From assembly GCA_017614275.1 (NCBI GenBank), contig JAGACE010000123.1, positions 1-14,518 on the forward strand: DNA of 14,518 bases, read 5' to 3'. A program made the position numbers and the translations under genes. The notes below the pieces were generated by a model. It searched no databases. It worked only from the letters and a program-made list of their open reading frames with translations, and was not told the DNA's origin. Numbering within the stretch: position 1 is the first letter of the stretch; each line of letters begins with the position of its first letter. Origin of the DNA: Clostridia bacterium (GTDB lineage Bacteria > Bacillota > Clostridia > Oscillospirales > Acutalibacteraceae). Shown here piece after piece: positions 1-14,453 of the stretch.

Positions 1-480
1 CCCCAGCCGGTATGAAACGGCATTATCCTCACAATTCTGTTTCGGATAGTGCTCCATAAATGCGGAAGCGGCCTGAAAAAGCAGATTTTTGGCGATCCGG
101 TCCATATTCAGGATCCGCCCCTTCAAAGGCAGCATAGCGTTCTGGTCGTCCCGCAAGTGAAAGGCAGCAAACAGAACAGAAAAAACGTCTTCCGGGTCTT
201 CCGCAATTTTATGCAATTCCCCGGGGAAGATCAGCAGGGAATGCCATGGCTTCAATATATATACGCAGCGACTCACCTCAATTTGAAATATATCCGCCAG
301 AGGACACAGCAGTATGTAGCGGTCATGAAGAAAAGAGCGGATCTCCTTGAACGCCGCCCGATAATAGAATTGAATTTTGTAGGGCAGCAGCGGCGGTACT
401 TCCGGAAATCCCGGTTTGGAAAACACAAATTCCGGAATCTGTTCCGTCCAGTTTTTCCATTTTGAAGAGATTTTACTCAT
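1..480 (-). CDS. AraC-type transcriptional regulator, N-terminal part (cut by window edge)
   Basis: The minus strand is open from an ATG at 480 to base 1 with no stop, giving the first 160 residues of a longer protein. The translation has the look of the N-terminal ligand-binding cupin-like domain of sugar-responsive AraC regulators: a hydrophobic beta-rich stretch (CVYILKPWHSLLIFPGELHK near residues 68-87) of the type that precedes 'PG..H' in this family, then an amphipathic helical part. The DNA-binding domain would lie beyond the edge, so the family call rests on the sensor part only. An in-frame GTG at 489 is an alternative start; an AGGAG at about 504-508 lies 14 nt from GTG but 23 nt from ATG, so GTG may be the true start. 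The gene is divergent from the hydrolase/GH3 operon and visibly less GC-rich than it. By position it is a candidate regulator of the TATGAT operators found at four promoters here. Confidence 0.6.
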   Translation of the reverse strand, partial: MSKISSKWKNWTEQIPEFVFSKPGFPEVPPLLPYKIQFYYRAAFKEIRSFLHDRYILLCPLADIFQIEVSRCVYILKPWHSLLIFPGELHKIAEDPEDVFSVLFAAFHLRDDQNAMLPLKGRILNMDRIAKNLLFQAASAFMEHYPKQNCEDNAVSYRLG

Positions 481-552: not shown

Positions 553-615
553 CAAGTTTTTATGATGACTCCCCAACATGTTATGATGCATGCCGAGGAG
601 TCTTTTGTTTATAAT
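553..615 (+). promoter_or_regulatory. Operator type A (site 1) plus -10 box of the hydrolase/GH3 operon
   Basis: Two half-sites of the form CAA-N5-TATGATG start at 553 and 574. Their TATGAT cores are at 561-566 and 582-587, exactly 21 bp apart, with CCC at 572-574 between them. A consensus -10 (TATAAT, 610-615) starts 28 bp after the second core, and there is no good -35, as expected for an activator-dependent promoter. The layout recurs at three other promoters in this window. A direct repeat at 21 bp is the classic spacing for AraC-family dimers. Confidence 0.75.
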
Positions 616-653
616 AAGCCCAATGATACAAAAGGCCCTCGGAGGGAAGCAGG

Positions 654-1670
654 ATGATCGTTACAAAAGATACGACATTACGAGAACTGAATGAGGCCCC
701 GGAACTGACAGCCGCGAAAGATGCGCTCATTTCCGGCGGGAACTATTTCGAGGGAGAGACCGCGGACTGGTCGCTGCAGGACCTGAACGAGAAGTTCGGG
801 ACCTGGGGCGCGTCCGATATGGTCTACGGTGTCCTGCGTCTGCTTCGGGTCCTGGCGTCCGGAGAACCGACCGTCTACTCCGTTTATTCTCCGGAAGAGA
901 TCGCGACGGAACCCAGAAAAGCGCAGGCAAAGCTGTTTTACCTGCCGGCAGAAAAGGTGGTGCGGCGGGAAGGAGCTCCCTTTGTGCTCCTGACGTCCGG
1001 CGGGGCGTACGGCGCGGTCTGCACGCTACCGGAGTCTCTTCCGGTGGCGGCAAAGCTGAACGAACTGGGCTACACCTGCTTCTGTCTGAACTACCGGACT
1101 GCAGTCCCGGAAGATGCAGCGAACGGGCTGTTCCCGATGCCGGCCGACGACTTTGCTGCCGCCTGGCGATTCATCAAAGCGCATGAAACAGACTTTGGCG
1201 TCTGCGCCGAGCACTATCTGGCCGGCGGCTTTTCCGCAGGAGGCCACCTCGCTGCTATGTGGGGTACCGAACACAAAGGCGCCCGCCATTATGGCATCCC
1301 GCAGCCGAAGATGCTGCTTCTGGATTACCCGATGATCTCAATGGATACCGTCGAGGAAGGTCCGATCCGGACCTTTATGCTGAACATGATGTTCGGTGCG
1401 GAACACAACCGGGTGGAGGAAGAAGACTATCTGGTCCACTACCATATCGACCGCAAATACCCCGCGGTCTACCATGTCCAGGCAGCCGACGACACAACGG
1501 TGCTGCCCGTCAACGCCAGCCTCCTGAAGGCGGCGGCAGAGCAGATGGAGGTTCCATATCGACTGGAACTGCTCGAACACGCAGGTCACGGGTTCGGGCT
1601 GGGAAGCGATACAGACGCCGCCGGTTGGGTGGAACGAGCGATGGCTTTTTATGAAGGAGAAGTCCGATGA
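654..1670 (+). CDS. Cytoplasmic alpha/beta-hydrolase (esterase/acetylesterase-like)
   Basis: This 338-residue protein has an alpha/beta-hydrolase fold. A strand followed by LLTSGGAYG (residues 112-120) occupies the oxyanion-hole position. The nucleophile elbow is GFSAGG (192-197, Ser194), the likely catalytic acid is Asp279 or Asp280 in VQAADDTT, and the likely catalytic histidine is His312 in GHGFG. There is no signal peptide, so it acts in the cytoplasm. The start is supported by GGAGGG seven bases upstream. It overlaps the next gene by 4 bp (ATGA), so the two are almost certainly co-translated. The fold and triad point to a carboxylic-ester hydrolase, and the GH3 partner suggests removal of acetyl or other acyl groups from a glycoside, but the substrate cannot be read from sequence. 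It is more distant from the esterases at 4239-5363 and 7126-8124 than those two are from each other. Confidence 0.85.
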   Translation: MIVTKDTTLRELNEAPELTAAKDALISGGNYFEGETADWSLQDLNEKFGTWGASDMVYGVLRLLRVLASGEPTVYSVYSPEEIATEPRKAQAKLFYLPAEKVVRREGAPFVLLTSGGAYGAVCTLPESLPVAAKLNELGYTCFCLNYRTAVPEDAANGLFPMPADDFAAAWRFIKAHETDFGVCAEHYLAGGFSAGGHLAAMWGTEHKGARHYGIPQPKMLLLDYPMISMDTVEEGPIRTFMLNMMFGAEHNRVEEEDYLVHYHIDRKYPAVYHVQAADDTTVLPVNASLLKAAAEQMEVPYRLELLEHAGHGFGLGSDTDAAGWVERAMAFYEGEVR

Positions 1671-4192
1671 CAGAAATGACAAAGCTGGAAAAGAAGAACG
1701 CGGCTCTTGCCGAAACGCTGGCAGAAGAGGGGATCGTTCTTCTGGAGAACAAAAGAAACTGCCTGCCGTTCGGAGACGGGATCCGGACGATTGCCCTGTT
1801 TGGCGCGGGCGCCCGCCGGACCATCGAAGGCGGGACTGGGTCCGGGCACGTGAACAGCCGGCACATCACCTCGGTGGAGGAAGGTCTGGAACAGGAAGGG
1901 TATACGATCGTATCGAAGGCCTGGCTCGATGAGTTCGACCGCGTCCAGAACGAGGCGCTGGCCGCCTATGAAGCTTCCATTCAGGAGGTGGCGCGTGAAA
2001 GTGCGCAGAAGGCGCTCCTGACCATGATGGGGAACCCGTTCCGGGAACCTGTATTCCGTGAACTGACCCAGGAGGAACTCACCGGCCTGTACGCGGATGC
2101 CGCCGTCTATGTCCTCGCCCGAAAGTCCGGGGAAGGCGCAGACCGGCACGACGCGGAAGGCGACTACCGGCTGACGGAGCAGGAGGTCCATGACATCCAG
2201 CTGCTCGCGGAACACTACCGTCGGTTTGTGCTGGTGCTCAACGTGGGCGGGCCGATGGATCTGCGCCCCGTCCGGAACTTCTCCGGCCTTGGCGCCATCC
2301 TGTACATCGGGCAGGGCGGCGTGGAATGCGGACGTGCTGCGGCACGGGTCCTGTCCGGCACCGTGACGCCCTCCGGCAAACTGGCTGCCACGTGGGCCTT
2401 CTCTTATGAAGACTATCCGTTCGCGGCCGAATACGCCGACGCCAACGGAGACCTCGACGATTCCTACTATAAAGAGGGCGTCTATGTCGGCTACCGGTAC
2501 TTTGATACCTTTGGGGTAGCCCCTCTTTATTCGTTCGGGCACGGTCTGTCCTATACGAGATTCCAGATGAAACTGGATACTCTGTCCCAGGAGAACGCCG
2601 AGGTGGTCCTGAAGGTCCGGGTCACCAACCTTCTGGAAGAATATGCCGGAAAAGAAGTGGTCCAGGTCTATGCGGCGCCGCCGATCGAAAGCGTCGACCG
2701 CCCCCGGCGGACACTTGTGGCGTTCGCCAAGACCAAATTGCTGGCTCCGGGCGAGCCGCAGCTCCTGACCATTCGCATCCCGGTAGATCGCCTCACCAAC
2801 TATAATGAAACTGAGTCTACCTTCGAACTGGAGGCGGGCGCATATACCCTGTCCCTCGGCGGGAGCCTGGAGTCTGCAGTCCCCTGTGCGGTGCTGCGGG
2901 TCAAAGACACGTTCGTCACCGAGACCTGCGCGGACCTCTTTGGCGATGTGCATCCGGAAGAACCCATCCCACTGAACCGGGTGGAGACCCCTGTGCCGGA
3001 CGCCTCTCTGCCGACCCTGGAACTGGACGAGTCGAAGTTCTTCACGACCATGCACGGCTATGCGCCGGTCGAACAGCGGGAACTGCTCAGCGGCATCCCG
3101 GAACTGACGTTCCAGGCGTTGAAGGAAGGCCGGACGACGGTCGAAGTCTTTACGGCCTGCCTGAGCGTGGAAGAAATGGCGACCCTCTGTGTCGGCTCTG
3201 CCCGTTTCTCGATGACCGATTTTTCCGTCATCGGGAACCAGTCGAAAGAACTGCCCGGCGCGGCCGGGGAGACCACGGACCTCCTGGAGAAGAAGTACGG
3301 CGTGCCGGCCGCCGTCATGGCGGACGGGCCTGCTGGGCTGCGCATCACCCCGGTCGTTTATGAGAAGGACGGCTATTACATCAAAAATCCGAAAGACGAC
3401 CCGACGTTCCGGCTCATCCTGCCGCCGGACGCACAGGACGTGGACCTTTCCGGCACCACGGTGTCGGAGCACTACTGCACGGCCCTGCCGGTGGCGACGG
3501 CACTGGCCCAGACCTGGAACCTGGACCTGCTCGAAACGGCAGGGGATATCGTCGGCAGTGAAATGGAGGCACTCGGCATCCACCTGTGGCTCGCCCCCGG
3601 CATGAACCTCCAGAAGAACCCGCTCTGCGGCAGAAACTTCGAATATTACTCCGAAGACCCGCTGCTCACCGGGCTCTGCGCGGCCGCCACGACCAGAGGC
3701 GTCCAGCAGCACAAGGGCTGCGGGGTCACCATCAAGCACATCGCCGTCAACAACCAGGAGACGAACCGGAACTTCAACTGCTCCCATGTCTCGGAGCGGG
3801 CGATGCGCGAGCTCTACCTCAAAGGGTTCGAGCTCTGCGTGCGGCAGGCCTACCCGGTCGCCGCCATGAGCTCCTACAACCTCATCAACGGAGAACAGGC
3901 ATCCAACCGGGAAGACCTGTTCACCCACATCCTTCGGAATGAATGGGGCTTTGCCGGCCTCGTCATGACGGACTGGGGCGCCACTTCCGGCTTTGGCCGC
4001 AGAGAGGACCAGAAGTACGACTGTGCGACGGCCGAAGGGTGCATCGCCGCCGGAAACGACCTCATCATGCCCGGCAGCCAGAGAGACGTCGATGCCATCG
4101 TCGCCGCTGTGGAGAAGGGCGATCTGCCCCTTGCCAAACTGCAGTTCTGCGCCGGGAACATCCTCTCCGTTTTGATTCGTCTTTTCGCGTAA
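1667..4192 (+). CDS. Glycoside hydrolase family 3 with permuted domain order
   Basis: This 841-residue protein has the parts of a GH3 beta-glycosidase in reversed order. Residues 15-300 resemble the usual C-terminal alpha/beta-sandwich domain: GIVLLENKRNCLPF, the GTGSGHV loop, SGEGADR at 154-160, and the GHGLSYTRF end at 291-299. Glu156 of SGEGADR is a candidate acid/base. Residues 300-415 look like the fibronectin-III-like domain (GKEVVQVY). Residues 490-841 are the (beta/alpha)8 barrel normally found first: ADGPAGLR (552-559), GRNFEYYSEDP, KHIAVNNQE (690-698), and the nucleophile motif VMTDWGA with Asp769. Such permuted GH3 enzymes are known from Ruminococcus albus and Butyrivibrio fibrisolvens. 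There is no signal peptide, so it probably cleaves imported beta-glycosides. The exact sugar specificity (glucoside, xyloside or other) is not determined. It is the second gene of the hydrolase operon and ends at a strong terminator. Confidence 0.93.
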   Translation: MTEMTKLEKKNAALAETLAEEGIVLLENKRNCLPFGDGIRTIALFGAGARRTIEGGTGSGHVNSRHITSVEEGLEQEGYTIVSKAWLDEFDRVQNEALAAYEASIQEVARESAQKALLTMMGNPFREPVFRELTQEELTGLYADAAVYVLARKSGEGADRHDAEGDYRLTEQEVHDIQLLAEHYRRFVLVLNVGGPMDLRPVRNFSGLGAILYIGQGGVECGRAAARVLSGTVTPSGKLAATWAFSYEDYPFAAEYADANGDLDDSYYKEGVYVGYRYFDTFGVAPLYSFGHGLSYTRFQMKLDTLSQENAEVVLKVRVTNLLEEYAGKEVVQVYAAPPIESVDRPRRTLVAFAKTKLLAPGEPQLLTIRIPVDRLTNYNETESTFELEAGAYTLSLGGSLESAVPCAVLRVKDTFVTETCADLFGDVHPEEPIPLNRVETPVPDASLPTLELDESKFFTTMHGYAPVEQRELLSGIPELTFQALKEGRTTVEVFTACLSVEEMATLCVGSARFSMTDFSVIGNQSKELPGAAGETTDLLEKKYGVPAAVMADGPAGLRITPVVYEKDGYYIKNPKDDPTFRLILPPDAQDVDLSGTTVSEHYCTALPVATALAQTWNLDLLETAGDIVGSEMEALGIHLWLAPGMNLQKNPLCGRNFEYYSEDPLLTGLCAAATTRGVQQHKGCGVTIKHIAVNNQETNRNFNCSHVSERAMRELYLKGFELCVRQAYPVAAMSSYNLINGEQASNREDLFTHILRNEWGFAGLVMTDWGATSGFGRREDQKYDCATAEGCIAAGNDLIMPGSQRDVDAIVAAVEKGDLPLAKLQFCAGNILSVLIRLFA

Positions 4193-4236
4193 ACAAAAAA
4201 CAAAGCCCCGTTTCCCACGGGGCTTTGTTTTTTGTT
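4192..4236. terminator. Bidirectional intrinsic terminator between convergent genes
   Basis: Arms 4192-4211 and 4217-4236 form a perfect 20-bp inverted repeat with a 5-nt loop. The AAAGCCCCGT core is GC-rich and flanked by A- and T-rich ends, so there is a U-tract in each direction. It closes the GH3 operon from the left and the secreted esterase gene from the right. Confidence 0.93.
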
Positions 4237-4238
4237 GC

Positions 4239-5363
4239 TTAAAAATGCGCTTCCAGCCAGTCGAGGTATTCTTCGAAGACCCAGGCATAGTCCGGATTGC
4301 TCGTGAAAATGTGATTGGCACCTTCGACTTCCGTATAGACCACATCTCCGCCTTTCGCTTCCAGGCGACTGGCATACTCTTTGGAACCAAGGTGAGTCAC
4401 TAGCATGTCCTCTGTCCCGTGAGCGATGTACTGCGGCACGGTCGTGTTCGTGATGTGAGACGGAAGATCGTACTGATACAACAGATTCGCTCTGGTGATC
4501 GGATTGCGGTACTCGTCTGCCGGGAAGACCGCAAAACCGCATCCGTGGTTATACTTCAAGGTAAGTGCCGGATAGAACAAGCCGATGCTGGAAACTTCAT
4601 CGGAAACCATATCGATCTCATCCGGTGTGTAGTCTTCCGGGAACTGATTTTTCCCCTGAAGAAGATTCAGAAAACCTGCGGCTAGGTACCCGCCGGCGCT
4701 TCCACCGAACAGAGCGATCTTATCGGGATCGAACCCATAGTCTTCCGAATGGAACCGAAGCCAGCGAACGGCTCTCTGCATGTCCAGAAGAGGAATGGGC
4801 ATTTTATACGGATTGCAGCGGTAGCCGAGCACAAACGCGGAGATGCCTCGCTCGTTGAACTGCTTGGCAAGGAGGTCGGTTTCTGCCGTATTGGGTTCCG
4901 TGATGTCGCCGGTGTAAACATAACCGCCCCCGGGAATGATGATGACCGCCCGGTCAGACCCTTCTACCGGGAAAGGCACGATAGCCGGAACATCAGTATA
5001 GGTCTCGGCAGAAATGCCGGGTTTGATATCCTTCAGCCAGGTCAGCGTATCGATCTCTTCCTGACAGTCGATATAGACGGCGCCGGTATATTTGCTCATC
5101 GCGATGAGGCTCTTTTTGAGATCGTTCTCCAACGTGGCGTCAAAATCGATTTTCATATCGTCGAATTTGCTTCGATCGCTGTTCCCGGGGATGGTCTCTC
5201 CCCAAATGGGAATGCTTGTGTAGTGCCCGTCTTTTGTGCTCGGCGTCTCCTGTCCGGAAGACTCCGCCGATCGGTCGGAATTGGCAAAGACCGGGACCAG
5301 CGTGACGACGAGGAGCAGTAATACGGAGAGAAAGATGGCCGCGTAACGATTAAAATGCTTCAT
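4239..5363 (-). CDS. Secreted alpha/beta-hydrolase (carbohydrate-esterase-like)
   Basis: This 374-residue protein begins with a clear signal peptide: MKHFNR, a hydrophobic core at residues 8-24, and a probable cleavage after Ala27 (VFA/NS). A Ser/Thr/Glu-rich linker to about residue 48 follows. No lipobox cysteine is seen, so it is probably released or loosely retained rather than a lipoprotein. The alpha/beta-hydrolase core has the oxyanion loop IIPGGGY (142-148), nucleophile elbow GGSAGG (220-225, Ser222), Asp319 in HGTEDM and His351 in GANHIF. From about residue 49 it aligns along its full length with the cytoplasmic protein at 7126-8124, with many identical blocks (for example IPIWGE, FNLLQG-type and EYL.WL ends). 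AAAGGAG lies about 8 bases before the ATG. It is divergent from the sugar symporter and shares its operator type, which suggests that it trims acyl groups from a glycoside outside the cell before uptake. Confidence 0.88.
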   Translation of the reverse strand: MKHFNRYAAIFLSVLLLLVVTLVPVFANSDRSAESSGQETPSTKDGHYTSIPIWGETIPGNSDRSKFDDMKIDFDATLENDLKKSLIAMSKYTGAVYIDCQEEIDTLTWLKDIKPGISAETYTDVPAIVPFPVEGSDRAVIIIPGGGYVYTGDITEPNTAETDLLAKQFNERGISAFVLGYRCNPYKMPIPLLDMQRAVRWLRFHSEDYGFDPDKIALFGGSAGGYLAAGFLNLLQGKNQFPEDYTPDEIDMVSDEVSSIGLFYPALTLKYNHGCGFAVFPADEYRNPITRANLLYQYDLPSHITNTTVPQYIAHGTEDMLVTHLGSKEYASRLEAKGGDVVYTEVEGANHIFTSNPDYAWVFEEYLDWLEAHF

Positions 5364-5424
5364 AAAAGAGTCTCCTTTGCATGTTTGATTATGACCGCGT
5401 GTTTGGCTTGAACGGCTGTTTGTA

Positions 5425-5486
5425 AGTATACGATAGTTACAAAATTATAAAATCATAAAAAAGAGGGATAATATCATATAAAAGAG
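5425..5486 (-). promoter_or_regulatory. Operator type A (site 3) plus -10 box of the secreted esterase
   Basis: Read on the minus strand, two 14-bp direct repeats, CTCTTTTATATGAT (5486-5473) and CTCTTTTTTATGAT (5465-5452), are 13/14 identical and exactly 21 bp apart. CCC lies between the two TATGAT cores, in the same place as at sites 1 and 2. The -10 box TATACT (5430-5425) starts 27 bp after the second core, the same spacing as at the symporter promoter. This is one of four matching promoters. Confidence 0.72.
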
Positions 5487-5527
5487 TGAAAACCTGTCCG
5501 AATGGCGGATAAGCCCGACAATTTTTT
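5487..5527 (+). promoter_or_regulatory. Rhamnose-type operator modules upstream of the symporter promoter
   Basis: Three blocks of the fucO operator recur here in swapped order. TGAAAACCTGTC (5487-5498) is identical to 8266-8277. GGATAA (5507-5512) matches 8259-8264. CCCGACAATTTTTT (5514-5527) matches 8245-8258 at 13 of 14 positions. The stretch lies between the divergent type A operators of the secreted esterase and the symporter, and its last bases overlap the symporter's first half-site. This may be a second regulatory input. Binding is inferred only. Confidence 0.4.
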
Positions 5528-5580
5528 ATGATTTTTTCCCAACATGCTATGATGAAATCGAACCCTGGAACACCTATAAT
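5519..5580 (+). promoter_or_regulatory. Operator type A (site 2) plus -10 box of the sugar symporter
   Basis: Half-sites CAA-N5-TATGAT start at 5519 and 5540, with TATGAT cores at 5527-5532 and 5548-5553 (21 bp apart) and CCC at 5538-5540. A consensus TATAAT (5575-5580) starts 27 bp after the second core. Aligned to site 1, about 27 of the 32 bases from the T-run before the first core through the second TATGATG are identical, including CCCAACATG. No recognisable -35 is present. Confidence 0.75.
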
Positions 5581-5612
5581 ACACTCGAAAGTTATTTAGA
5601 GGAGGAATTCAA

Positions 5613-7052
5613 ATGGCTCTTCGGAAAAAGAACGCAGAGACTGTTGCTGTGGGCACTGCAGCAGAAGCTGCTGCCGGTGAAGCGACCGCTTTGGAAAAGA
5701 AAGATAAACTGGGCGGGAACCAGAAGATCGGTGCCTTTATGGCGGCGATTGTCGCTGCGGTTGCCACGGGATATGTCCCGAACTACATCAACCTTTATTA
5801 CACGGAATTGATGGGTGTCTCCATCGGTGCCATCGGTGCCATCATCATGGTGACGAAGTTCACGGACGGTCTGACCGACATCATCATGGGCATGCTGATC
5901 GACCGGACCCATTCAAAATGGGGCAAGGCGAAGCCCTGGCTGCTCGCCGGCGCCGCCGGTCTGGCCATTTCCATGATGCTGCTCTTCAGCTGCCCGCCGA
6001 AGTGGGGCATGGGCGGAAAGATCGCGTTCTGCACCATCTTCTACATCCTGGCCAATCCGATTTTCGGGACCATGGTCGCGGTTGCGGCGAACACGCTCCC
6101 CAACCTGATTTCTCCCAAGTCGGATCACCGCGCCACCATCGGCGTGTTCAAAGGCCTGGGCGCCATGGTCCCGCTGCTTCTCATCGGTCTTGTCGTCCCG
6201 AAACTGCTCGAACTCATGGGAGAGAGCCAGAAAACGTACACCACTGCCACTCTCATGTTTGCCGTTCTTGCCATCCTGTGTGCCATCATCGCATTCCTTC
6301 TGATCCATGAGACGGTCACAGAACATGCTGAGGCAGTTCTTGGACAGACGAAGCAACCAGTCGGTGAATCCCTGAAGAATCTGTTCTCCAATAAGTATTT
6401 CCTCTGGCTTGCCGGCGGTACGATCCTCTATAACCTGACTGCGGCACCGGTCGCCACCTATTATGCCAAATACATTTTCCACAATGTCGGCACGGCTACC
6501 CTGATCAACCTGCCCAGCATTTTTATGGTCCTTCTCCTTCCGCTCGCCCTTCCCATCGTGAAAAAAATGGGCAAACGGCAGGCCATGGTCATGGGCCTGA
6601 CGGTTGCAGCGCTTGGCCATCTCATCATCTTCTTTGCGAACGATAACCTTGCATTGTTCATGGTCGGCAAGACCATCGCGGCCGTTTTCTCGGTCCCGTA
6701 TTTTGTTGCGCTGATCCCCCTGATGGGCGAAGTTTGCGACTATGCTCTGTACAAGTCCGGGAAACCCATGGATGGCACCATCAGTTCCGCCAACTCCATG
6801 GGAGAAAAGATCGGCGTCGGCCTCATCGCCGGAGTCTCCAGCCTCATGATGCAGCTGGCCGGTTTCCAGTCCAACACCATGGGCGCGGAAGTCGCCCAGC
6901 CCGGCAGCGCCATCTTTATGATCCGCTTCCTGCTCGGCGTTTTCCCGGCCATCCTCTTCCTTCTGGCAGCCTTCTGCTTCTGGCATGTCAACATGGACAG
7001 AGAGAACATCACCGAGATCCAGAAGGAACTCAAAGAAAAAGGCATGAGATAA
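5613..7052 (+). CDS. GPH-family (MelB-like) cation:sugar symporter
   Basis: This 479-residue, highly hydrophobic protein should have about 12 membrane segments after a 35-residue Ala/Glu-rich cytoplasmic N-terminus. The signature of the glycoside-pentoside-hexuronide:cation symporter family is clear: TKFTDGLTDIIMG (81-93) followed by DRTHSKWGKAKPWLL (97-111). Asp85 and Asp89 have the D-x3-D spacing of the cation-site aspartates of E. coli MelB (Asp55 and Asp59). It probably imports a glycoside or oligosaccharide with Na+ or H+ across the cytoplasmic membrane. GAGGAGG seven bases upstream supports the start. The gene is monocistronic, ending at a strong terminator. It shares its promoter architecture with both esterases and the GH3 operon, so it is the likely uptake system for their substrate. 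The sugar itself cannot be deduced. Confidence 0.9.
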   Translation: MALRKKNAETVAVGTAAEAAAGEATALEKKDKLGGNQKIGAFMAAIVAAVATGYVPNYINLYYTELMGVSIGAIGAIIMVTKFTDGLTDIIMGMLIDRTHSKWGKAKPWLLAGAAGLAISMMLLFSCPPKWGMGGKIAFCTIFYILANPIFGTMVAVAANTLPNLISPKSDHRATIGVFKGLGAMVPLLLIGLVVPKLLELMGESQKTYTTATLMFAVLAILCAIIAFLLIHETVTEHAEAVLGQTKQPVGESLKNLFSNKYFLWLAGGTILYNLTAAPVATYYAKYIFHNVGTATLINLPSIFMVLLLPLALPIVKKMGKRQAMVMGLTVAALGHLIIFFANDNLALFMVGKTIAAVFSVPYFVALIPLMGEVCDYALYKSGKPMDGTISSANSMGEKIGVGLIAGVSSLMMQLAGFQSNTMGAEVAQPGSAIFMIRFLLGVFPAILFLLAAFCFWHVNMDRENITEIQKELKEKGMR

Positions 7053-7079
7053 TAACTCTCGCTTGGATACATGTCTTAC

Positions 7080-7113
7080 GAAAAAGTGCCCGGAATCATC
7101 CGGGCACTTTTTC
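7080..7113. terminator. Bidirectional intrinsic terminator between convergent genes
   Basis: Arms 7080-7094 and 7099-7113 form a perfect 15-bp inverted repeat (GAAAAAGTGCCCGGA and its complement) with a 4-nt loop and T-runs on both strands. It lies between the symporter gene and the convergent cytoplasmic esterase gene and should serve both. Confidence 0.93.
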
Positions 7114-7125
7114 TTTTTAGTTCGT

Positions 7126-8124
7126 TTAAAAATGTTCGTCGAGCCAGGTCAGGTATTCTTCGAACACCCAGTTGTATTCCGGCTTGTTCGTAAAGATGTG
7201 GTTGGCGCCTTCTACTTCGACATAGTGGATGGGCGCGCCGGCGGCTTCCATGGCTTTGACGTACTGTCGGGAGGTCTTGTGGGTCACCAGCATATCCTTC
7301 GTCCCGTGGGCGATGAACTGCGGCGTTTTCGTGTCGATGATGTGGCGCGGCAGGTCGGTACGGTCCAGTGTGTCTCTCCGGCGCTTCCACGTCTTGAACG
7401 CCTCTTCGGGGAAGGTGGCGTAGAGGATGCCTTTGTTGTGCTTCAGCGTGACCGCAGGGTAGAACATGCCGCCGTTGCAGACGGCGTCATCGACTGCGTC
7501 CACTTCATCCGGCTCGTAACCGACGGGAAACTGGTTCGTCCCCTGCAGCAGGTTCAGAAAGCCTGCGACCTGGTACCCTCCGGCAGAGCCGCCCATGAGG
7601 GCAATCTTCTTCGGATCCAGTCCGTACTCCTCCGCGTGGAAGCGGATGAAACGAACGGCCCGCTGGACGTCGAGAAGGGGAATGGGGAAACGGTAGGGGT
7701 TATAGCGGTAGTCGAGGCAGAACGCGGAGATGCCGTGTTCATTGAGCCGTCTCGCCAGTTTGTCGGTCTCTTCCTGGTCTTTGGCGGTGAGGTCCCCCGT
7801 AAAGGCATAGCCGCCGCCGGGGATAAGGATGACTGCCCGGTCGGAACCTTCGCACAGGAAAGGCACGATGCCGGGAACATCGGTATAGGTTTGTTCGCAG
7901 TAGCCCGGCTCCATGCAATTGCACCAGGTGGCGGTGTCGATGACTTTCTTGCGGTCAAAGAACACGCTCCCCAAATACTTGCCGATGAGCAGCGCGAATT
8001 TGATCTGGTTTTTCTGCGGATCCGCGTCGAAGTCGATGGTCATGTCATCGAGCTTGGACCGGCTGCTGTTGCCGGGGATGACATCGCCCCAGATGGGCGT
8101 GACAGAATAGGTGCCTTCTTTCAT
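7126..8124 (-). CDS. Cytoplasmic alpha/beta-hydrolase, paralogue of the secreted esterase
   Basis: This 332-residue protein starts MKEGTYSVTPIWGD with GGAGGG just upstream. The longer open frame to 8313 is rejected as a start because it would run through the promoter. There is no signal peptide. The alpha/beta-hydrolase features match the secreted paralogue: IPGGGYAFTG (101-110), GGSAGGY (178-184, Ser180), HGTKDML with Asp277, and EGANHIF with His309. The two proteins share the opening IWG(E/D).IPGNS, NPY...PIPLLD and NLLQG.NQFP, and similar C-terminal ends. It lies after the symporter in convergent orientation and has its own type A operator. The pair therefore looks like one esterase made in two compartments: the secreted form acting before uptake, this one after. 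The natural ester substrate is unknown; a sugar acetyl ester is plausible. Confidence 0.87.
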   Translation of the reverse strand: MKEGTYSVTPIWGDVIPGNSSRSKLDDMTIDFDADPQKNQIKFALLIGKYLGSVFFDRKKVIDTATWCNCMEPGYCEQTYTDVPGIVPFLCEGSDRAVILIPGGGYAFTGDLTAKDQEETDKLARRLNEHGISAFCLDYRYNPYRFPIPLLDVQRAVRFIRFHAEEYGLDPKKIALMGGSAGGYQVAGFLNLLQGTNQFPVGYEPDEVDAVDDAVCNGGMFYPAVTLKHNKGILYATFPEEAFKTWKRRRDTLDRTDLPRHIIDTKTPQFIAHGTKDMLVTHKTSRQYVKAMEAAGAPIHYVEVEGANHIFTNKPEYNWVFEEYLTWLDEHF

Positions 8125-8158
8125 AAGAGTCCCTCCAGTAAGGTCATTATACACCAGT

Positions 8159-8220
8159 ATTATAGAGAAGGCACGGGCGATGCACATCGCAGAAACTTGG
8201 CGACTTCTCATAAAAACTTG
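8159..8220 (-). promoter_or_regulatory. Operator type A (site 4, degenerate) plus -10 box of the cytoplasmic esterase
   Basis: On the minus strand, half-sites CAAGTTTTTATGAG (from 8220) and CAAGTTTCTGCGAT (from 8199) are 21 bp apart. The first shares 13 straight bases, CAAGTTTTTATGA, with site 1. A consensus TATAAT (8164-8159) starts 27 bp after the second core. The second core (TGCGAT) and the central triplet (GCC) depart from consensus, so this is probably a weaker site. Confidence 0.65.
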
Positions 8221-8247
8221 CGACGAACCGGGACGCCTGCAAACCCC

Positions 8248-8302
8248 GACACTTTTTTGGATAAATGAAAACCTGTCGGTCTGCGTCGGTTTTCGGTATG
8301 AT
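8248..8302 (+). promoter_or_regulatory. Operator type B plus -10 box of fucO
   Basis: The 30-bp stretch 8248-8277, starting GACACTTTTTT and ending AAAACCTGTC, matches 10686-10715 upstream of rhaB at 24 of 30 positions. In both places a -10 hexamer starts 20 bp after the last operator base (here TATGAT, 8297-8302), with no good -35. An inverted repeat CCGACA/TGTCGG (8246-8251, 8274-8279) frames this copy. The arrangement fits a promoter switched on by an AraC-type activator, most simply the one encoded at 9646-10656. Confidence 0.7.
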
Positions 8303-8357
8303 GAGAATGTCAAAAGAATAACGAAATATTCGGCACTGCAGAAAAGGAGACTTTATC

Positions 8358-9506
8358 ATGGCCAACAGAATCAGCTTGAACCCCACTTCGTACCACGGCG
8401 CCGGCGCCATCCAGGAGATCGTTACCGAAGCCAAAGCCAACGGTTTTACCAAAGCGTTCGTCGCTTCTGACCCCGACCTCGTGAAGTTCGGCGTCACCGC
8501 GAAGGTCACGGACCTTCTGGATGCAGCGGACATCCCGTACGAAGTCTATTCTGACATCAAACCGAACCCGCCCATCGAGAACGTCCAGAACGGCGTGGAA
8601 GCCTATAAAACCTCCGGTGCGGACTTCATCGTCGCCATCGGCGGCGGTTCCTCCATGGACACCTCCAAGGCCATCGGCATCATCATCAACAACCCCGAGT
8701 TCGCGGATGTCCGTTCTCTCGAAGGCGTCGCTCCCACAAAGAACCCCTGCGTGCCGATCATCGCGGTCCCGACGACTGCCGGCACCGCCGCGGAAGTCAC
8801 CATCAACTACGTCATCACGGACGTGGAGCGCAAGCGGAAGTTCGTCTGCGTCGACCCGCACGATATGCCCATCGTCGCCGTCGTCGACCCTGAAATGATG
8901 TCCTCCATGCCCAAGGGCCTGACCGCCGCCACCGGCATGGACGCTCTGACCCACGCCATCGAAGGCTACACCACGAAGGCCGCCTGGGAAATGACCGACA
9001 TGTTCCACCTCAAAGCCATCGAACTCATCTCCAAGTCCCTTCGCGGCGCCGTCAACAACGAGCCGGAGGGAAGAGAAGGCATGGCGCTCGCGCAGTACAT
9101 CGCCGGCATGGGCTTCTCCAACGTCGGCCTCGGCATCGCCCACTCCATGGCCCACACCCTCGGCGCGGTCTATGACACGCCTCACGGCGTCGCCTGCGCC
9201 ATGATGCTCCCGAACGTCATGGAATTCAACGCGGACGTCACCGGTGACAAGTTCGCGAACATCGCGAAGGCAATGGGTGTCGAAGGGGTCGATGACATGA
9301 GCGTCGAAGAGTACCGCAAAGCGGCGGTCGATGCCGTCCGCAAACTCTCCGTCGACGTCGGCATCCCGACCGTCCTCGAAGCCCTCAAAGAAGAGGACCT
9401 CGACTTCCTCGCCGAAAGCGCCGCAGCCGATGCCTGCACACCCGGCAACCCGAAGGAAGCCTCTCTGGAGGATTACAAGACCCTCTTCCGGAAACTCATG
9501 AAATAA
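8358..9506 (+). CDS. fucO: Lactaldehyde reductase (L-1,2-propanediol oxidoreductase)
   Basis: This 382-residue iron-containing alcohol dehydrogenase closely fits FucO, which is 383 residues in E. coli. It would reduce the L-lactaldehyde made by rhamnulose- or fuculose-phosphate aldolase to L-1,2-propanediol with NADH, in the cytoplasm. Nucleotide-binding GGGSSMDT is at 95-102. The metal ligands Asp195, His199, His262 and His276 lie in GMDALTHA, GIAHSMAH and DTPHG, each one residue lower than the E. coli FucO ligands. AAAGGAG lies about 8 bases upstream of the ATG. The gene shares a type B operator with rhaB, so it is probably induced with the rhamnose pathway and acts as its fermentative redox outlet. 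An imperfect terminator follows. Confidence 0.93.
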   Translation: MANRISLNPTSYHGAGAIQEIVTEAKANGFTKAFVASDPDLVKFGVTAKVTDLLDAADIPYEVYSDIKPNPPIENVQNGVEAYKTSGADFIVAIGGGSSMDTSKAIGIIINNPEFADVRSLEGVAPTKNPCVPIIAVPTTAGTAAEVTINYVITDVERKRKFVCVDPHDMPIVAVVDPEMMSSMPKGLTAATGMDALTHAIEGYTTKAAWEMTDMFHLKAIELISKSLRGAVNNEPEGREGMALAQYIAGMGFSNVGLGIAHSMAHTLGAVYDTPHGVACAMMLPNVMEFNADVTGDKFANIAKAMGVEGVDDMSVEEYRKAAVDAVRKLSVDVGIPTVLEALKEEDLDFLAESAAADACTPGNPKEASLEDYKTLFRKLMK

Positions 9507-9551: not shown

Positions 9552-9586
9552 GAAGACCGTGACGAAATGTCGCGATCTTCTTGTCG
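9552..9586 (+). terminator. Imperfect intrinsic terminator after fucO
   Basis: Arms 9552-9563 and 9569-9580 pair over 12 positions with one mismatch and one G-T wobble around a GAAAT loop, followed by TTGTCGTTT. It is weaker than the two bidirectional terminators to the left. Its tail doubles as the -35 region of the next promoter. Confidence 0.6.
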
Positions 9587-9609
9587 TTTCCGTCGCGGTT
9601 GCTTATAAT
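9581..9609 (+). promoter_or_regulatory. Sigma-70-type promoter of the araC-type gene
   Basis: TTGTCG (9581-9586) and TATAAT (9604-9609) are separated by 17 bp, and the regulator's ATG is 37 bases beyond. Unlike the catabolic promoters here it has a usable -35 and no recognisable type A or B operator, which fits constitutive low-level expression of a regulator. Confidence 0.65.
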
Positions 9610-9645
9610 GGAAATAGCCAGGACACGTGCAAAGGAGGGCCCGTT

Positions 9646-10656
9646 ATGATCCGGGAAGAGATTCTGGAATACCTGCGTCCCATCACCGAAGAGGAACAGG
9701 CGGCGCTCGACGGCAGGGAAGAAGTCGACCGGTCGTTGTATGTCAAGGACGCGGAAAACCTGATTGCCAACAAGGAAGGAAAACTGGATGTCATCAACAG
9801 CGAAAAGCTGCTCGAGAACGGACGGATCATTACAGTCCGCCCGCACACCCGGTTCGTCCATTTCCCGGAACACCAGCACGACTACATTGAAGTCATCTAC
9901 ATGTGCTCCGGCTCCACGACCCACATCATCAACGGAACGGAACTGAAACTGCAGGATGGGGAACTCCTGTTCCTCGGACAGAACGCGACCCAGGAGATCC
10001 TCCCAGCGGGAGAGAATGACATTGCGGTCAACCTCATCGTCCTGCCGCAGTTCTTCGACACGGCCCTGCAGATGATGGGGGAGGAGGAGAGCCCGCTGCA
10101 CCGCTTCATCATCGACGTCCTGACCGGGGAGAACGCCACCGGGTACCTGTACTTCCAGGTCTCGGACATCCTGCCGGTCCAGAACCTGATGGAAAACTTG
10201 TTGTATACTCTGATCCACAATTCGCCGAATCGCCGCAACATCAACCAGACGACGATGGGCCTTCTGTTCCTGCAACTTTTGAACTACACGGACCGTCTGT
10301 TCTACGAGGACGACTCCGAGGAAGAAGCTGTCGTTCAGGTGCTCCGTTATATAGAAAACCATTATAATGACGGTTCGCTCAGCGAATGCGCCGACCTTCT
10401 GCACTACGACTTTTACTGGCTGTCGCGGGAAATCAAGAAACAGACCGGGAAGAACTACACAGACCTGTTGCAGGAGAAGCGGATGGCGCAGGCGGCCTTT
10501 CTGCTGAAGACGACTAAAATGAATGTGGCCGACATAGCCCTCAGCATCGGGTACGAGAATGTGAGCTACTTCCATCGGCTCTTCGGAAAGACCTATGGTT
10601 TATCGCCGAAGAAATACCGGACTGCCAACCAGGAAGTCCAGGGTGCGAACGGCTGA
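9646..10656 (+). CDS. AraC-family transcriptional regulator (candidate rhamnose activator)
   Basis: This 336-residue protein has the usual two-domain AraC layout. Residues 55-130 form a cupin-like sensor (HFPEHQHDYIEVIYMCSGS, then LKLQDGELLFLGQNATQEI). Residues 228-330 form the double helix-turn-helix DNA-binding domain, ending in the family signature NVADIALSIGYENVSYFHRL followed by FGKTYGLSPKKYR. The start is set by AAAGGAGGG six bases upstream of the ATG; the open frame extends 29 codons further up but through the -10 box. It sits between fucO and the rhaB operon, the two genes that share operator type B, so it is the natural candidate activator, probably sensing L-rhamnose or a pathway intermediate. 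It is not a clear sequence match to E. coli RhaS or RhaR, so no symbol is given. Confidence 0.9.
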   Translation: MIREEILEYLRPITEEEQAALDGREEVDRSLYVKDAENLIANKEGKLDVINSEKLLENGRIITVRPHTRFVHFPEHQHDYIEVIYMCSGSTTHIINGTELKLQDGELLFLGQNATQEILPAGENDIAVNLIVLPQFFDTALQMMGEEESPLHRFIIDVLTGENATGYLYFQVSDILPVQNLMENLLYTLIHNSPNRRNINQTTMGLLFLQLLNYTDRLFYEDDSEEEAVVQVLRYIENHYNDGSLSECADLLHYDFYWLSREIKKQTGKNYTDLLQEKRMAQAAFLLKTTKMNVADIALSIGYENVSYFHRLFGKTYGLSPKKYRTANQEVQGANG

Positions 10657-10685
10657 GTTGTCCGCACGACCGGACTGCAACAGAG

Positions 10686-10740
10686 GACACTTTTTTAGTT
10701 AAACCAAAACCTAACAAACCTCTCTTTCGGAGTGTATCAT
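10686..10740 (+). promoter_or_regulatory. rhaB: Operator type B plus -10 box of the rhaB operon
   Basis: 10686-10715 (GACACTTTTTTAG..., ending AAAACCTAAC) matches the fucO operator at 24 of 30 positions. The -10 box TATCAT (10735-10740) starts 20 bp after the operator's last base, identical to the fucO promoter. No -35 consensus is present. The first base of a 67-nt inverted repeat begins immediately after the operator. Confidence 0.7.
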
Positions 10741-10782
10741 GTGAACTGTAAGAACACGTGACACGCAACGAAAGGGAGGTTT
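10716..10782 (+). repeat. Imperfect inverted repeat covering the rhaB promoter and Shine-Dalgarno
   Basis: The outer arms AAACCTCTCTTTCG (10716-10729) and CGAAAGGGAGGTTT (10769-10782) pair over 14 positions with one T-G wobble. Inside them GTGTATCATGTG (10732-10743) partly pairs with CACGTGACAC. The right arm contains the rhaB Shine-Dalgarno (GGGAGG). The left arm lies upstream of the predicted -10, so an RNA hairpin could form only in transcripts entering from upstream. Confidence 0.6.
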
Positions 10783-10787
10783 TCGTT

Positions 10788-12184
10788 ATGAAATACTTTC
10801 TTGCAGTAGACATCGGAGCCGGCAGCGGACGACACATTCTCGGCTCCATTCAGGACGGCAAACTCGTCCTGGAAGAGATCCACCGCTTTGAAAACGGGAT
10901 GGACCGCAACGAAAACGGTCACCTCATCTGGGACCACGAGAGACTGTTCCGCGAGATCAAAGCGGGCCTGAAAAAAGCCGGCGACCTCGGCAAGGTCCCG
11001 TCCTATGTCGCCATCGACACCTGGGGCGTCGACTACGTCCTCCTCGACAAGGATGACCACGAGATCCTTCCGGTGTATGCCTACCGCGATGAACGGACTG
11101 AAGCAGCAGTCCCCGCAGTGGAAGCGGTCATCGCTCCCGAGAAGCTCTACAGCATCACCGGCATCCAGAAGCAGAACTTCAACTCCATCTACCAGCTCTG
11201 GTGTGACAAGGAGTCCGGACGCATGGACCAGGTCGCGAGCCTTCTGATGATTCCCGAGTACTTCTGCTACAAACTGACCGGCGTCAAGCTCAACGAGTAC
11301 ACGAACGCCTCCACCGGCGGCATGCTGGACGCGGCGAAGAAGACCTGGTCCGAAGAGATCATCGACAAGCTCGGCTACAAGAAGAGCCTTTTCGGAACGC
11401 TCTCCCTTCCGGGAACGGAAGTCGGAAGCTTCACGGAGCAGATCGCCAAAGAAGTCGGGTATGACGCCAAAGTCATCCTGTGCCCGACCCACGACACGGC
11501 ATCCGCCGTGGCTGCCTGTCCGCTCGACGACGAGACGCTGTTCCTGTCCTCCGGCACCTGGAGCCTCATCGGGTTTGAGAACCTCGAGCCTGTCATCAAC
11601 GAGGCCGGGTTCAAAGCCAACTACACGAACGAGGGCGGCATCGAGTACCGCTTCCGCTGCCTCAAAACTTCATGGGCATGTGGCTCTTCCAGAGCATCCG
11701 GAAAAACCTCGATAAAAAGTACACCTACGACGAGATGATGGAGATGGCCATGGCCTCCACGTACGACAAGACCGTGGATGTTAACAGCCCGAACCTCACC
11801 GCTCCGGAAAACATGATCGAAGCCATTCGCGCTGAAGTCGGCGAACCGGACCTTCCCGTGGGCGATGTACTGGAATGTGTGTACCAGTCCCTGAGTGACG
11901 CGTACGGCAGAGCCGTGAAGGAAGCCGAAGCGCTGTCCGGCCGGACGTTCTCGAAACTCCTCATCGTCGGTGGCGGCGGCTCCGACGTCTACCTCAACAA
12001 ACTGACCGCCGAAAAGACCGGCCTCACCATCCTGACCGGCATCAAAGAGGCAACGACCACCGGCAACCTCGCAGCGCAGATCATTTACGACTGCAAGGAA
12101 AACGGCGGAGAGTATATCGACATCATGAACTTCCGGGAGCTGGTCAAAGCCTCCTTCCCGCTGAGCGAAACGAAAGGAAACTGA
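10788..12184 (+). pseudogene. rhaB: Rhamnulokinase, interrupted by a 1-nt frameshift
   Basis: Rhamnulokinase (FGGY sugar-kinase family) phosphorylates L-rhamnulose with ATP. The first frame (from ATG 10788, GGGAGG eight bases upstream) gives DIGAGSGR at 8-15, DTWGVDY around 77-83, and CPTHDTAS with Asp236, the likely catalytic base. It reads correctly to about residue 293 (EYRFRCLK), then runs into unrelated residues and stops at 11738. The remainder, from NFMGMWLFQSIRKNL through GGGGSD to the end at 12184, is in another frame. Adding one A to the AAAA run at 11664-11667 would restore a single 465-residue protein, normal for RhaB. Neither half alone should be active. It may be a true mutation or a homopolymer sequencing error. 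The rhaD start follows 3 bases after the end of the second frame. Confidence 0.88.
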
Positions 12185-12187
12185 ACC

Positions 12188-13006
12188 ATGAAAGACATCA
12201 TGACTGCACCCTTTGTCAAAGAGATGTGTGAGACCACAGCCAACATGTATCGCCTCTACTGGGACGAGCGAAACGGCGGCAACATCAGCTACCTGCTGGA
12301 TGAGAAGGAAGTTGCCGAGTACCTCGACACGAGCTACGTCATCCGCACGTTCGACACCGGCTTCGAAGCGCCGGACCTCGTCGGCAAGTACTTCATCGTC
12401 ACCGGCTCCGGCAAGTACTTCAAGAACGTGGAGAAGGACCCCGCTGACAACATGGGTATCATCCGGATCGCGGAGGACGGCACCACCGCAGAACTCCTCT
12501 GGGGCTTTGAGGACGGGGTCTCCAAACCGACCTCTGAGCTGCCCGCCCACCTCATGAGCCATCAGGCCCGCCTGAAGGTCGACCCCGAGAACCGCGTGGT
12601 CCTGCACTGCCACCCGACGAACATCCTCGCCATGACCTATGTCCATGAGCTGGACGCGAAGAAGTTCTCCCACACGCTCTGGGAGATGAGCACGGAGTGC
12701 ATCGTCGTCTTCCCGGAAGGCGTCGAAGTCCTGCCCTGGATGCTCTGCGGCACGAACAGCATCGGCGAAGCCACGGCCGAGAAGATGCAGAACGCCCGCG
12801 TGGTCCTCTGGGCGATGCACGGCATCTACGGCGCCGGCAAAACCTGAGATGAGACCTTCGGCCTCGTCGAGACCGTCGAGAAGGCCGCGATGATCTACAT
12901 GAAGATCGCGCACCTGCCGCTCGTCAACACCATCAAAGACGAAGAACTGAAAGAACTCGCCGAGTACTTCGGCGTCGATTACCGAAAAGACTATCTGAAC
13001 GCATAA
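12188..13006 (+). pseudogene. rhaD: Rhamnulose-1-phosphate aldolase with an in-frame TGA
   Basis: RhaD is a zinc class II aldolase splitting L-rhamnulose-1-phosphate into dihydroxyacetone phosphate and L-lactaldehyde. The frame is clear: WDERNGGN (25-32), FIVTGSGK, TSELPAH with Glu117, LHCHPTN with His140 and His142, STECIVVFP, and His211 in AMHGIYGAG. These match E. coli Glu117, His141, His143 and His212. A TGA at 12845-12847 (codon 220) interrupts it where E. coli has Leu in GPTLDETFGL. The same frame continues as DETFGLVETVEK and so on to TAA at 13004-13006. The total, 272 residues plus the stop, is close to the family's 274. The metal site lies before the stop, but about 52 C-terminal residues would be lost. 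It is followed after 13 bases by the isomerase gene. Confidence 0.88.
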
Positions 13007-13019
13007 AGGAGGAAACAAC

Positions 13020-14453
13020 ATGCTCGTCAAAAGCCTCGTAGAAACCAAAGCGAAGGTCGGCGTGTTTGCCATCGCGCTGGGCGCGTACCTTCCGCAGTTC
13101 CCGACGCTGGTCCCGGAGTTTGAGGCCCAGTATGAGGACTTCAAGAAGACCAACATCCCGGATTCCGTCGAGCTCGTCGACGGCGGCATCGTCACGACGA
13201 AAGAACTCGCCATGGCGGCCGGGGACAAGTTCCGCGCCGCGGACGTGGATCTCGTCATCCTGCAGCTCCTGACCTATGCCACATCCTACAATATGCTTCC
13301 GGCCGTCCGCGATCTCAACGTCCCCGTCGTGCTCGTCAACGTTCAGAAGAAACTGGCGCCGGACTATGCAAACACGGACACCGCCACCTGGCTCGGCGAA
13401 CTTTATGCCTGCGGTGCCGTCGGTGAAATGGTCGCCGACCTCGAACGCGCCGGCAAGCGGCACGCGGTCATCACCGGTGTCGTCGAAGGGGGAGACCCCG
13501 AAGTCAAAGCGGAGATCGAGGACTGGTGCAAAGCCGCTCAGGTCCGCCGCCGCTTCCGCCAGACGAACATCGCGCAGATCGGCCGTCCGTATCCCGGCAT
13601 GATGGACCTCTACATCGACGAGACCAACCTGTACCACAGAATGGGCCTCTATACCAAACAGTTCGACTGGGAGGTCATGTGGGACATCGCCGACGACATC
13701 ACCGACGAGGAAGCCATCCGCGAAAAGGCGCAGGACATCCTGGACACCTTCGACATCGAGGGCGGTGCCACGGTCGAGACCGTCTGGGATATGGCGAAAT
13801 ACGTTGTAGCTTTCGAACAGTGGGTGAAGGACGAGCAGATCGCCTTCGTCGCCTCCCACTATGACGGCAAGGCCCAGGGCAAAGCCGGCACGCTCGACTC
13901 CATGCTCATCCCGGCGTTCTCCATGCTTATCAAGCAGGGCGTTGCCTGCGCCGTCGAAGGGGACATCAAAGTTTCCATGGCGATGAACATCCTGAAGACC
14001 ATTTCCGGCATGGGCCAGCTTTCTGAGATGTATTCCATCGACTTCAATGAAGACATCTGCATCATCGGCCACTCCGGCTCGGGCGACGCGGACATCTCCG
14101 CGAAGAAACCCACCATGAAGATCGTGGACGTGTTCCACGGCAAGACCGGCGGCGGATACCTCACCCAGTTCTATCCGCACCTCGGGCCCGTCACTTACCT
14201 CGGCATCACCCAGGACAAGGACGGCAACTTCAAGTTCGTCGTCGCGGAAGGCGTCAACGAGGAAGGCCCCATCTTCACCTACGGAGACACGAACATGCGC
14301 ACCCGCTTCACCTGCGGCGCCCGCGAGTTCTGCAATAAATGGAGCGAAGCCGGCCCCACCCACCACATGGCGGCGGCGTCCGGCAGACATATCGATACCA
14401 TCCTGAAGGTCGCCAAGATCTTTGACGTCCCGGTGGATATCATCACCCGCTGA
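13020..14453 (+). CDS. AraA/FucI-fold sugar isomerase, probable aldose-ketose isomerase of the rhamnose operon
   Basis: This 477-residue protein resembles the L-arabinose/L-fucose isomerase superfamily rather than the xylose-isomerase-like RhaA of about 420 residues. Family-like features are LQLLTYATSYNMLPAV (81-96), VEGDIK with Glu313, the metal-site region DFNEDICIIGHSG (341-353, with Asp341, Glu344 and His351 as candidate ligands), and GPTHHMA near 445-451 with His448 and His449, which fits the C-terminal histidine of AraA. AAAGGAGG seven bases upstream supports the start. It follows the aldolase in one operon and is intact, so its likely role is the opening isomerisation of L-rhamnose to L-rhamnulose, as a replacement for RhaA. 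An L-fucose or L-arabinose isomerase role remains possible. Confidence 0.8.
   Translation: MLVKSLVETKAKVGVFAIALGAYLPQFPTLVPEFEAQYEDFKKTNIPDSVELVDGGIVTTKELAMAAGDKFRAADVDLVILQLLTYATSYNMLPAVRDLNVPVVLVNVQKKLAPDYANTDTATWLGELYACGAVGEMVADLERAGKRHAVITGVVEGGDPEVKAEIEDWCKAAQVRRRFRQTNIAQIGRPYPGMMDLYIDETNLYHRMGLYTKQFDWEVMWDIADDITDEEAIREKAQDILDTFDIEGGATVETVWDMAKYVVAFEQWVKDEQIAFVASHYDGKAQGKAGTLDSMLIPAFSMLIKQGVACAVEGDIKVSMAMNILKTISGMGQLSEMYSIDFNEDICIIGHSGSGDADISAKKPTMKIVDVFHGKTGGGYLTQFYPHLGPVTYLGITQDKDGNFKFVVAEGVNEEGPIFTYGDTNMRTRFTCGAREFCNKWSEAGPTHHMAAASGRHIDTILKVAKIFDVPVDIITR

Follow-up and report, generated by a model that had tools for sequence, protein, structure and literature searches.

A paired TATGAT operator at four promoters of a probable L-rhamnoside regulon in uncultured gut Clostridia

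In Escherichia coli, the regulators AraC, MelR and RhaS combine an AraC-type helix-turn-helix (HTH) with a cupin-like N-terminal domain and activate transcription from sites that abut or overlap the -35 region. RhaS binds inverted repeats, unlike the direct repeats described below. We analysed a stretch of 14,518 nucleotides (hereafter the window) that forms one contig of a 1,276,424-base (1.28 Mb) assembly from a Clostridia bacterium (GCA_017614275.1; G000) and that carries the same paired TATGAT element at four promoters. As judged from sequence, these four elements are probably the operators of a single local AraC-family activator of L-rhamnoside breakdown, with a protein that we call AraC_A as the most likely regulator. 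The closest systems are described in the sections of PMC3870299 on rhamnose regulation: AraC-family rhamnose regulators (RhaR) of Bacillales, Bacteroides and Enterococcus have direct repeats with a 21-bp periodicity and a motif unique to each group, and rhamnose-containing oligosaccharides have separate regulators, namely RhgR in Bacillales, and RhiR and RhmR elsewhere.

Set beside those sections of PMC3870299, the locus resembles the RhaR regulons in its putative AraC-family regulator of rhamnose use, its 21-bp direct repeats and its local regulon, a likeness of description and not of motif logos. It differs from them in that rhamnosidase, esterase and symporter genes have this operator and the catabolic genes a different one. 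In role it also resembles RhgR as presented there, a specialised rhamnoside regulator apart from the regulator of rhamnose catabolism, although it belongs to another lineage and has a GPH symporter and BD-FAE esterases where the source gives ABC transporters and rhamnohydrolases. The system is real and useful but ordinary in kind, since both separate rhamnose and rhamnoside regulators and 21-bp repeats have already been described. What it offers for uncultured gut Clostridia is a concrete operator and a candidate regulator of rhamnoside use, together with a likely substrate for esterases, a GH3 protein and a symporter, which family membership alone would not tell.

The element is 36 bp long, with a consensus of about CAANTTTTTATGATNNNNNCCCAANTTGNTATGATG, and is composed of two half-sites (consensus about CCAANTTTTTATGAT) spaced 21 bp apart. 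Operator 1 (553..588, plus strand; cores at 561 and 582) lies 5' of an operon of a BD-FAE/alpha-beta hydrolase gene (target 1a, 654..1670) and a GH3 gene (target 1b, 1667..4192). Operator 2 (5451..5486, minus strand; cores at 5478 and 5457) precedes a gene for a BD-FAE-family esterase (target 2, 4239..5363), operator 3 (5519..5554, plus strand; cores at 5527 and 5548) one for a GPH-family (MFS_2) symporter (target 3, 5613..7052), and operator 4 (8185..8220, minus strand; cores at 8212 and 8191) one for another BD-FAE-family esterase (target 4, 7126..8124). A -10 box begins 28 bp after the second core at operator 1 (TATAAT, 610..615) and 27 bp after it at operators 2 (TATACT, 5425..5430), 3 (TATAAT, 5575..5580) and 4 (TATAAT, 8159..8164); boxes and target genes all lie on the strand of their operator. 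The original prediction took the target 2 esterase to be secreted and that of target 4 to be cytoplasmic. The four core pairs, their 21-bp spacing and these distances to the -10 box all agree with the original prediction, made from the window alone. Three of the window operators contain TATGAT-N15-TATGAT without mismatch, while the cores of operator 4 are TATGAG and TGCGAT, with three mismatches summed over both. The alignment also contains, as had been predicted, CCC in the equivalent internal position at three sites and GCC at the fourth. The CCC opens the second half-site (CCCAA), which corresponds to the CAA located 21 bp further upstream, before the first core; operator 2 is without this CAA and scores lowest by matrix, yet both of its cores are exact.

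With the relatives described below, 12 copies of the site were available, representing six orthologous promoters across three genomes (five copies in G000, six in G001 and one in G005). A hexamer with no more than one mismatch to TATAAT was present at offset 27 or 28 in all 12, against 3.0% for shuffled downstream sequence. The element is a direct repeat of two half-sites about 21 bp apart, as in AraC-type operators. Its downstream half-site extends as far as the -35 region and keeps a fixed distance from the -10 box, which is the class II activation layout of AraC-type proteins. Because TATGAT resembles a -10 hexamer, the repeats might instead be a promoter feature or the operator of a DNA-binding protein of some other family. 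We regard this as very unlikely: two TATGAT cores spaced 21 bp and followed 27-28 bp further on by a -10 box of their own do not form a promoter pair, and the only regulators among the annotated proteins of the cluster are of the AraC type.

Equally spaced pairs are not scattered at random across the genome, an outcome that would have told against the original prediction. The mismatch-free pattern occurs three times in the G000 assembly, each time within the window. When up to 2 mismatches were allowed, both strands of G000 gave 45 matches against 12 for a reversed control pattern, and with up to 3 mismatches the window gave 12 matches, where 200 shuffles averaged 4.5 and never exceeded 11. 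Exact TATGAT pairs on the same strand, 6-60 bp apart, were spaced 21 bp in 3/3 cases in the window and in 4/5 cases on contig C18 of G001, where the fifth was spaced 28 bp. The genome and its relatives were also scanned with a matrix, as the original prediction had proposed. Built from the four window sites, this matrix scored 29.8-45.3 at five other sites (C238:5393 in the host, 6554, 13576 and 17810 in G001, and 608 in G005), all of them above its maximum over 875,012 background positions (26.5) and over 200 Markov copies of the window (14.7). One of the five, 17810, is orthologous to a training site, and the others are two ortholog pairs (C238:5393 with 13576, and 6554 with G005 608). Full sites were confined to the cluster.

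The distribution of the element was followed in eight genomes of the host genus (G000-G007) and beyond. The fifth host site (position 5393 of contig C238) lies in a stretch of GH78, esterase and AraC genes that corresponds to part of contig C18 of G001, a relative that is 97% complete and carries the cluster on that contig. G001 has four exact matches, all on C18, and six sites, likewise all on C18, by a profile model (R1) trained on nine of the 12 site copies, the remaining three being identical to training rows. These sites, 6554, 13576 and 17810 among them, precede the gene GH78a (6646-9387), two BD-FAE genes (13668-15332 and 15351-16460), the hydrolase/GH3 operon, the first esterase, the symporter and the second esterase, and R1 found no equally good full site outside the cluster in this genome. 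Of the eight genus genomes, only G000 and G001 gave a match to the GPH symporter at E<=1e-80. With fuller scoring, R1 gave no hit at E<=1 in G002, G003 and G006, and reached at most 13.8 bits in G004 and G007. Scans of 300 family and 295 order genomes were run with stricter filters and 23 candidates scored per genome. Scores of at least 24 bits were confined, among the family genomes, to G000 (5 sites), G001 (6) and G005 (1); at E<=0.1, 76/300 had some hit, with the 73 genomes other than these three all at or below 19.9 bits. At E<=0.001 the order genomes yielded G000 only. The two sets contained no previously unseen site, so the value of R1 lies in the lack of comparable hits elsewhere. The site in G005 (608) is a single relic. 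Contig C126 of that genome keeps the first operator, its -10 box and the start of the GH78 gene (C126:1-1014); nearly all of the cluster appears to have been lost, and much of the remaining contig resembles G001 sequence from beyond the cluster.

We then compared orthologous upstream regions, another check suggested by the original prediction, taking motif and flank identities from gapped alignments. Operator 1 (561) and its counterpart at G001 C18:17802-17837 are identical at 30/36 positions (83%), with flanks at 73% on the upstream side and 51% on the downstream side, and G001 6554 matches G005 608 at 33/36 (92%), against 43% upstream (21 columns only) and 63% downstream. Conservation is thus higher within the sites than beside them, though not dramatically so at window 561. 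The pair of C238:5393 has flanks that are themselves 90-100% identical and hence adds nothing to the conservation argument. Between G000 and G001, a tract at window positions ~3000-9000 shows 99-100% identity, compared with 70-95% (500-base bins) in the remainder of the aligned window; this tract may reflect either recent recombination or strain mixing in one metagenome-assembled genome.

The likely substrate of the regulon comes from two GH78 alpha-L-rhamnosidases that belong to the cluster and are out of sight in the window. The second of them in G001 (11076-13580) comes after GH78a and an esterase. When neighbouring proteins were scored against NCBIfam, lactaldehyde reductase and rhamnulose-1-phosphate aldolase exceeded a cut-off and a rhamnulokinase fragment fell below it. 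By family assignment only (two GH78 proteins and the GPH symporter), the targets fit release, uptake or catabolism of L-rhamnose. Since the GH78 rhamnosidases, esterases, GH3 protein and symporter adjoin rhamnose-catabolism genes, an L-rhamnoside-utilisation regulon, probably serving the breakdown of plant material that contains rhamnose, is the best reading. In the GH3 protein (1667-4192) the C domain stands ahead of the N domain, with an Fn3-like domain in between. The two esterase genes are paralogous, with ~67% DNA identity between window positions 4224-5003 and 7110-7890 in the comparison of G000 and G001.

The original prediction assigned all four units to one AraC-type protein, most simply the one encoded at positions 1-480. 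This gene (gene B, 1..480, minus strand) specifies the N-terminal 160 amino acids of a probable AraC-type protein cut by the contig end, and these residues gave 0 Pfam hits. Gene B directly adjoins operator 1, and a search of 100 family genomes matched it to just one other protein (E<=1e-5; 31% over 62 amino acids, in G084), whose C-terminal part, by eye, resembles an AraC HTH. However, gene B has no match in G001-G007 (0/7, E<=1), although G001 keeps six canonical sites. Moreover, the alignment of the window with G001 starts at window position 469, which is at about the first codons of gene B, and G001 consequently lacks the remainder of that gene. Gene B was therefore rejected as the main regulator, and it would be surprising if it governed the four units. 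A local regulon marked by one shared AraC-like operator architecture still stands, with that architecture confined to the cluster and conserved above its flanks in a relative; the choice of the protein at 1-480 did not stand, and the first regulator candidate shifts to AraC_A. Between gene B and operator 1 there is a hairpin with a T-tract (513-547), flanked by A and T runs, where a scan called a terminator-like site on the plus strand.

AraC_A is encoded at C238:8293-9282 in G000 and at C18:16528-17526 in G001, where it sits between sites 13576 and 17810. HTH_18, HTH_AraC (in two stretches) and AraC_binding all scored above their cut-offs, which places the protein in the AraC/XylS family. It shares the AraC-type HTH and a cupin-like N-terminal domain with E. 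coli AraC, MelR and RhaS, but falls far below the NCBIfam equivalog cut-offs for AraC (82.6 of 208 bits) and RhaS (66.9 of 288 bits). The two species are 82% identical over the whole protein, with 100/111 identical positions in the HTH region and 170/214 in the remainder. The leader of AraC_A contains a single half-site, CAACAATATTTTATGAT, which fits the half-site consensus and is kept at 17/17 positions in both species, between flanks that are 21% and 57% identical; the latter flank includes a conserved block of a second motif (motif 2, below). The element scored at G001 C18:17541 (22.7) contains this half-site, and its upstream half is not conserved. Because of the conserved half-site in its own leader, AraC_A is probably autoregulated, and on circumstantial evidence from two genomes it is the most likely regulator of the operators. 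Relatives of AraC_A were found, beyond G000 and G001, in 9 of 250 family genomes (29-34% identity) and, beyond G000, in 2 of 394 order genomes (30-31%); a scan of genome contigs returned, besides the G001 contig, one remote match (30% over 95 residues). Searches with tblastn of up to 20 kb around 5/9 of the family loci detected no rhamnosidase, GH3, esterase or symporter of the cluster at E<=1e-10, and two of these five loci are near an isomerase ~28-30% identical to that of the cluster.

From these features a mechanism can be proposed in which an AraC-type dimer would occupy both half-sites, spaced 21 bp, on the same face of the helix. The downstream half-site, at the -35 region of promoters with a good -10 box, would allow RNA polymerase to be recruited by class II activation. 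The trigger would be an inducer of the L-rhamnose type, suggested by the GH78 genes and by the neighbouring genes of rhamnose catabolism, and the targets switched on would be the GH78 rhamnosidases, the BD-FAE-type esterases, the GH3 protein and the GPH symporter. AraC_A would serve as the activator and would feed back on the half-site in its own leader. We infer the binding protein, the inducer and activation, as opposed to repression, from sequence features.

Several observations weigh against this interpretation. When each operator was left out of the matrix in turn, operators 1-4 scored 38.3, 18.5, 40.7 and 25.7, so that operators 2 and 4 fell under the background maximum of 26.5; their case consequently leans heavily on spacing, -10 register and position. 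G004 and G007 each contain one instance of the bare exact pattern as well; R1, with fuller scoring, found no full-length site in either genome (hits at most 13.8 bits). Both facts would suit a chance likeness of AT-rich promoter regions, but the confinement to one cluster, the fixed -10 register and the scores of the other sites above all background make such a coincidence extremely improbable. As to conservation, the upstream flank at window 561 is itself 73% identical, and that of operators 2, 3 and 4 is uninformative because they lie inside the 99-100% tract. The full system is present in two genomes only, which gives n=2 for the joint occurrence of AraC_A and the sites. In addition, five upstream regions of the AraC_A relatives of 29-34% identity, from other genera, contained no such repeat with a -10 box; the best repeats there were A-rich, with a 20-bp spacing and no good -10 box, in G024, and GC-rich, with a 21-bp spacing and taken as coding, in G231 and G019. 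The inducer is a guess from gene content. Finally, the best -35 hexamer had at most 2 mismatches to TTGACA in 4/8 promoters, against ~18% for random sequence, a comparison that gives activation no clear advantage. Such hexamers, along with the overlap of the site with the -35 region, would suit a repressor, or an AraC-type protein that uses the same operator and activates at some promoters only. On the other hand, a perfect -35 occurs in none of the eight promoters, and two of the four better hexamers have a 15-bp spacer. When their sites are so placed, AraC-family sugar regulators mostly act as activators. Activation is thus likelier than repression, and we consider a repressor or a mixed role unlikely.

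The window encodes a further AraC-type protein, AraC_C (9559..10656, plus strand), which is RhaS-like and scored 89.6 of 288 bits against NCBIfam RhaS, below the cut-off. A different element, motif 2 (GGACAYTTTTTTAGTTAAANNNNNACCTGT-like), is found on the plus strand at 8247..8280, 5' of the lactaldehyde reductase gene (8358-9506) and with 3 mismatches to the first 19 bases, and at 10685..10718, 5' of the rhamnulokinase gene. In both species it is also present upstream of AraC_A (C238:9347 and G001 C18:17615), where it points away from that gene. A -10-like hexamer follows each copy by eye. Motif 2 was scored at 16 loci of AraC_C homologs in 15 genomes other than G000. The most similar homolog, in G144 (62%), has the best score (20.9), the next being 12.8, and 20 control loci reached at most 11.8. 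AraC_C therefore probably owns motif 2 and would regulate the rhamnose-catabolic genes, a reading that outside the genus draws on one ortholog. Its presence in the same cluster and its retention in both full-cluster genomes could suggest that AraC_C controls these genes plus all four units. This is improbable, because the promoters beside AraC_C, those of lactaldehyde reductase and rhamnulokinase, carry motif 2 instead, the nearest out-of-genus ortholog found (G144) has a motif-2-like element, and G004 has two AraC_C homologs (49-51%) without an R1 hit above 13.8 bits. Since neighbouring promoters carry motif 2 and homologs occur without the sites, AraC_C was rejected as the regulator of the TATGAT operators.

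If AraC_A acts at the TATGAT repeats and AraC_C at motif 2, then two AraC-family regulators with distinct operators could split the pathway within the ~25 kb cluster, with the TATGAT repeats assigned to rhamnoside release and uptake and motif 2 to catabolism. The two tiers may be linked, the catabolic regulator feeding the rhamnoside tier, because motif 2 lies beside the half-site upstream of AraC_A in both species. We put this arrangement forward tentatively, as a possibility with somewhat less than even chances.

Other features of the region were also recorded. A weak element at G001 C18:33122 (21.7), 5' of a class II aldolase gene, contains an exact CAAGATTT repeat 21 bp apart and was left out of the regulon for its poor cores. 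The presumed rhamnose isomerase (window 13020-14453) has a weak likeness to the C-terminal domains of fucose and arabinose isomerases, and the named families are distant. In the host, the rhamnulokinase gene is broken into two overlapping frames and the frame for rhamnulose-1-phosphate aldolase stops early, near 12846 (window 10758-12184 and 12188-12847), which reflects either an assembly error or real decay; each is a single open frame in G001.

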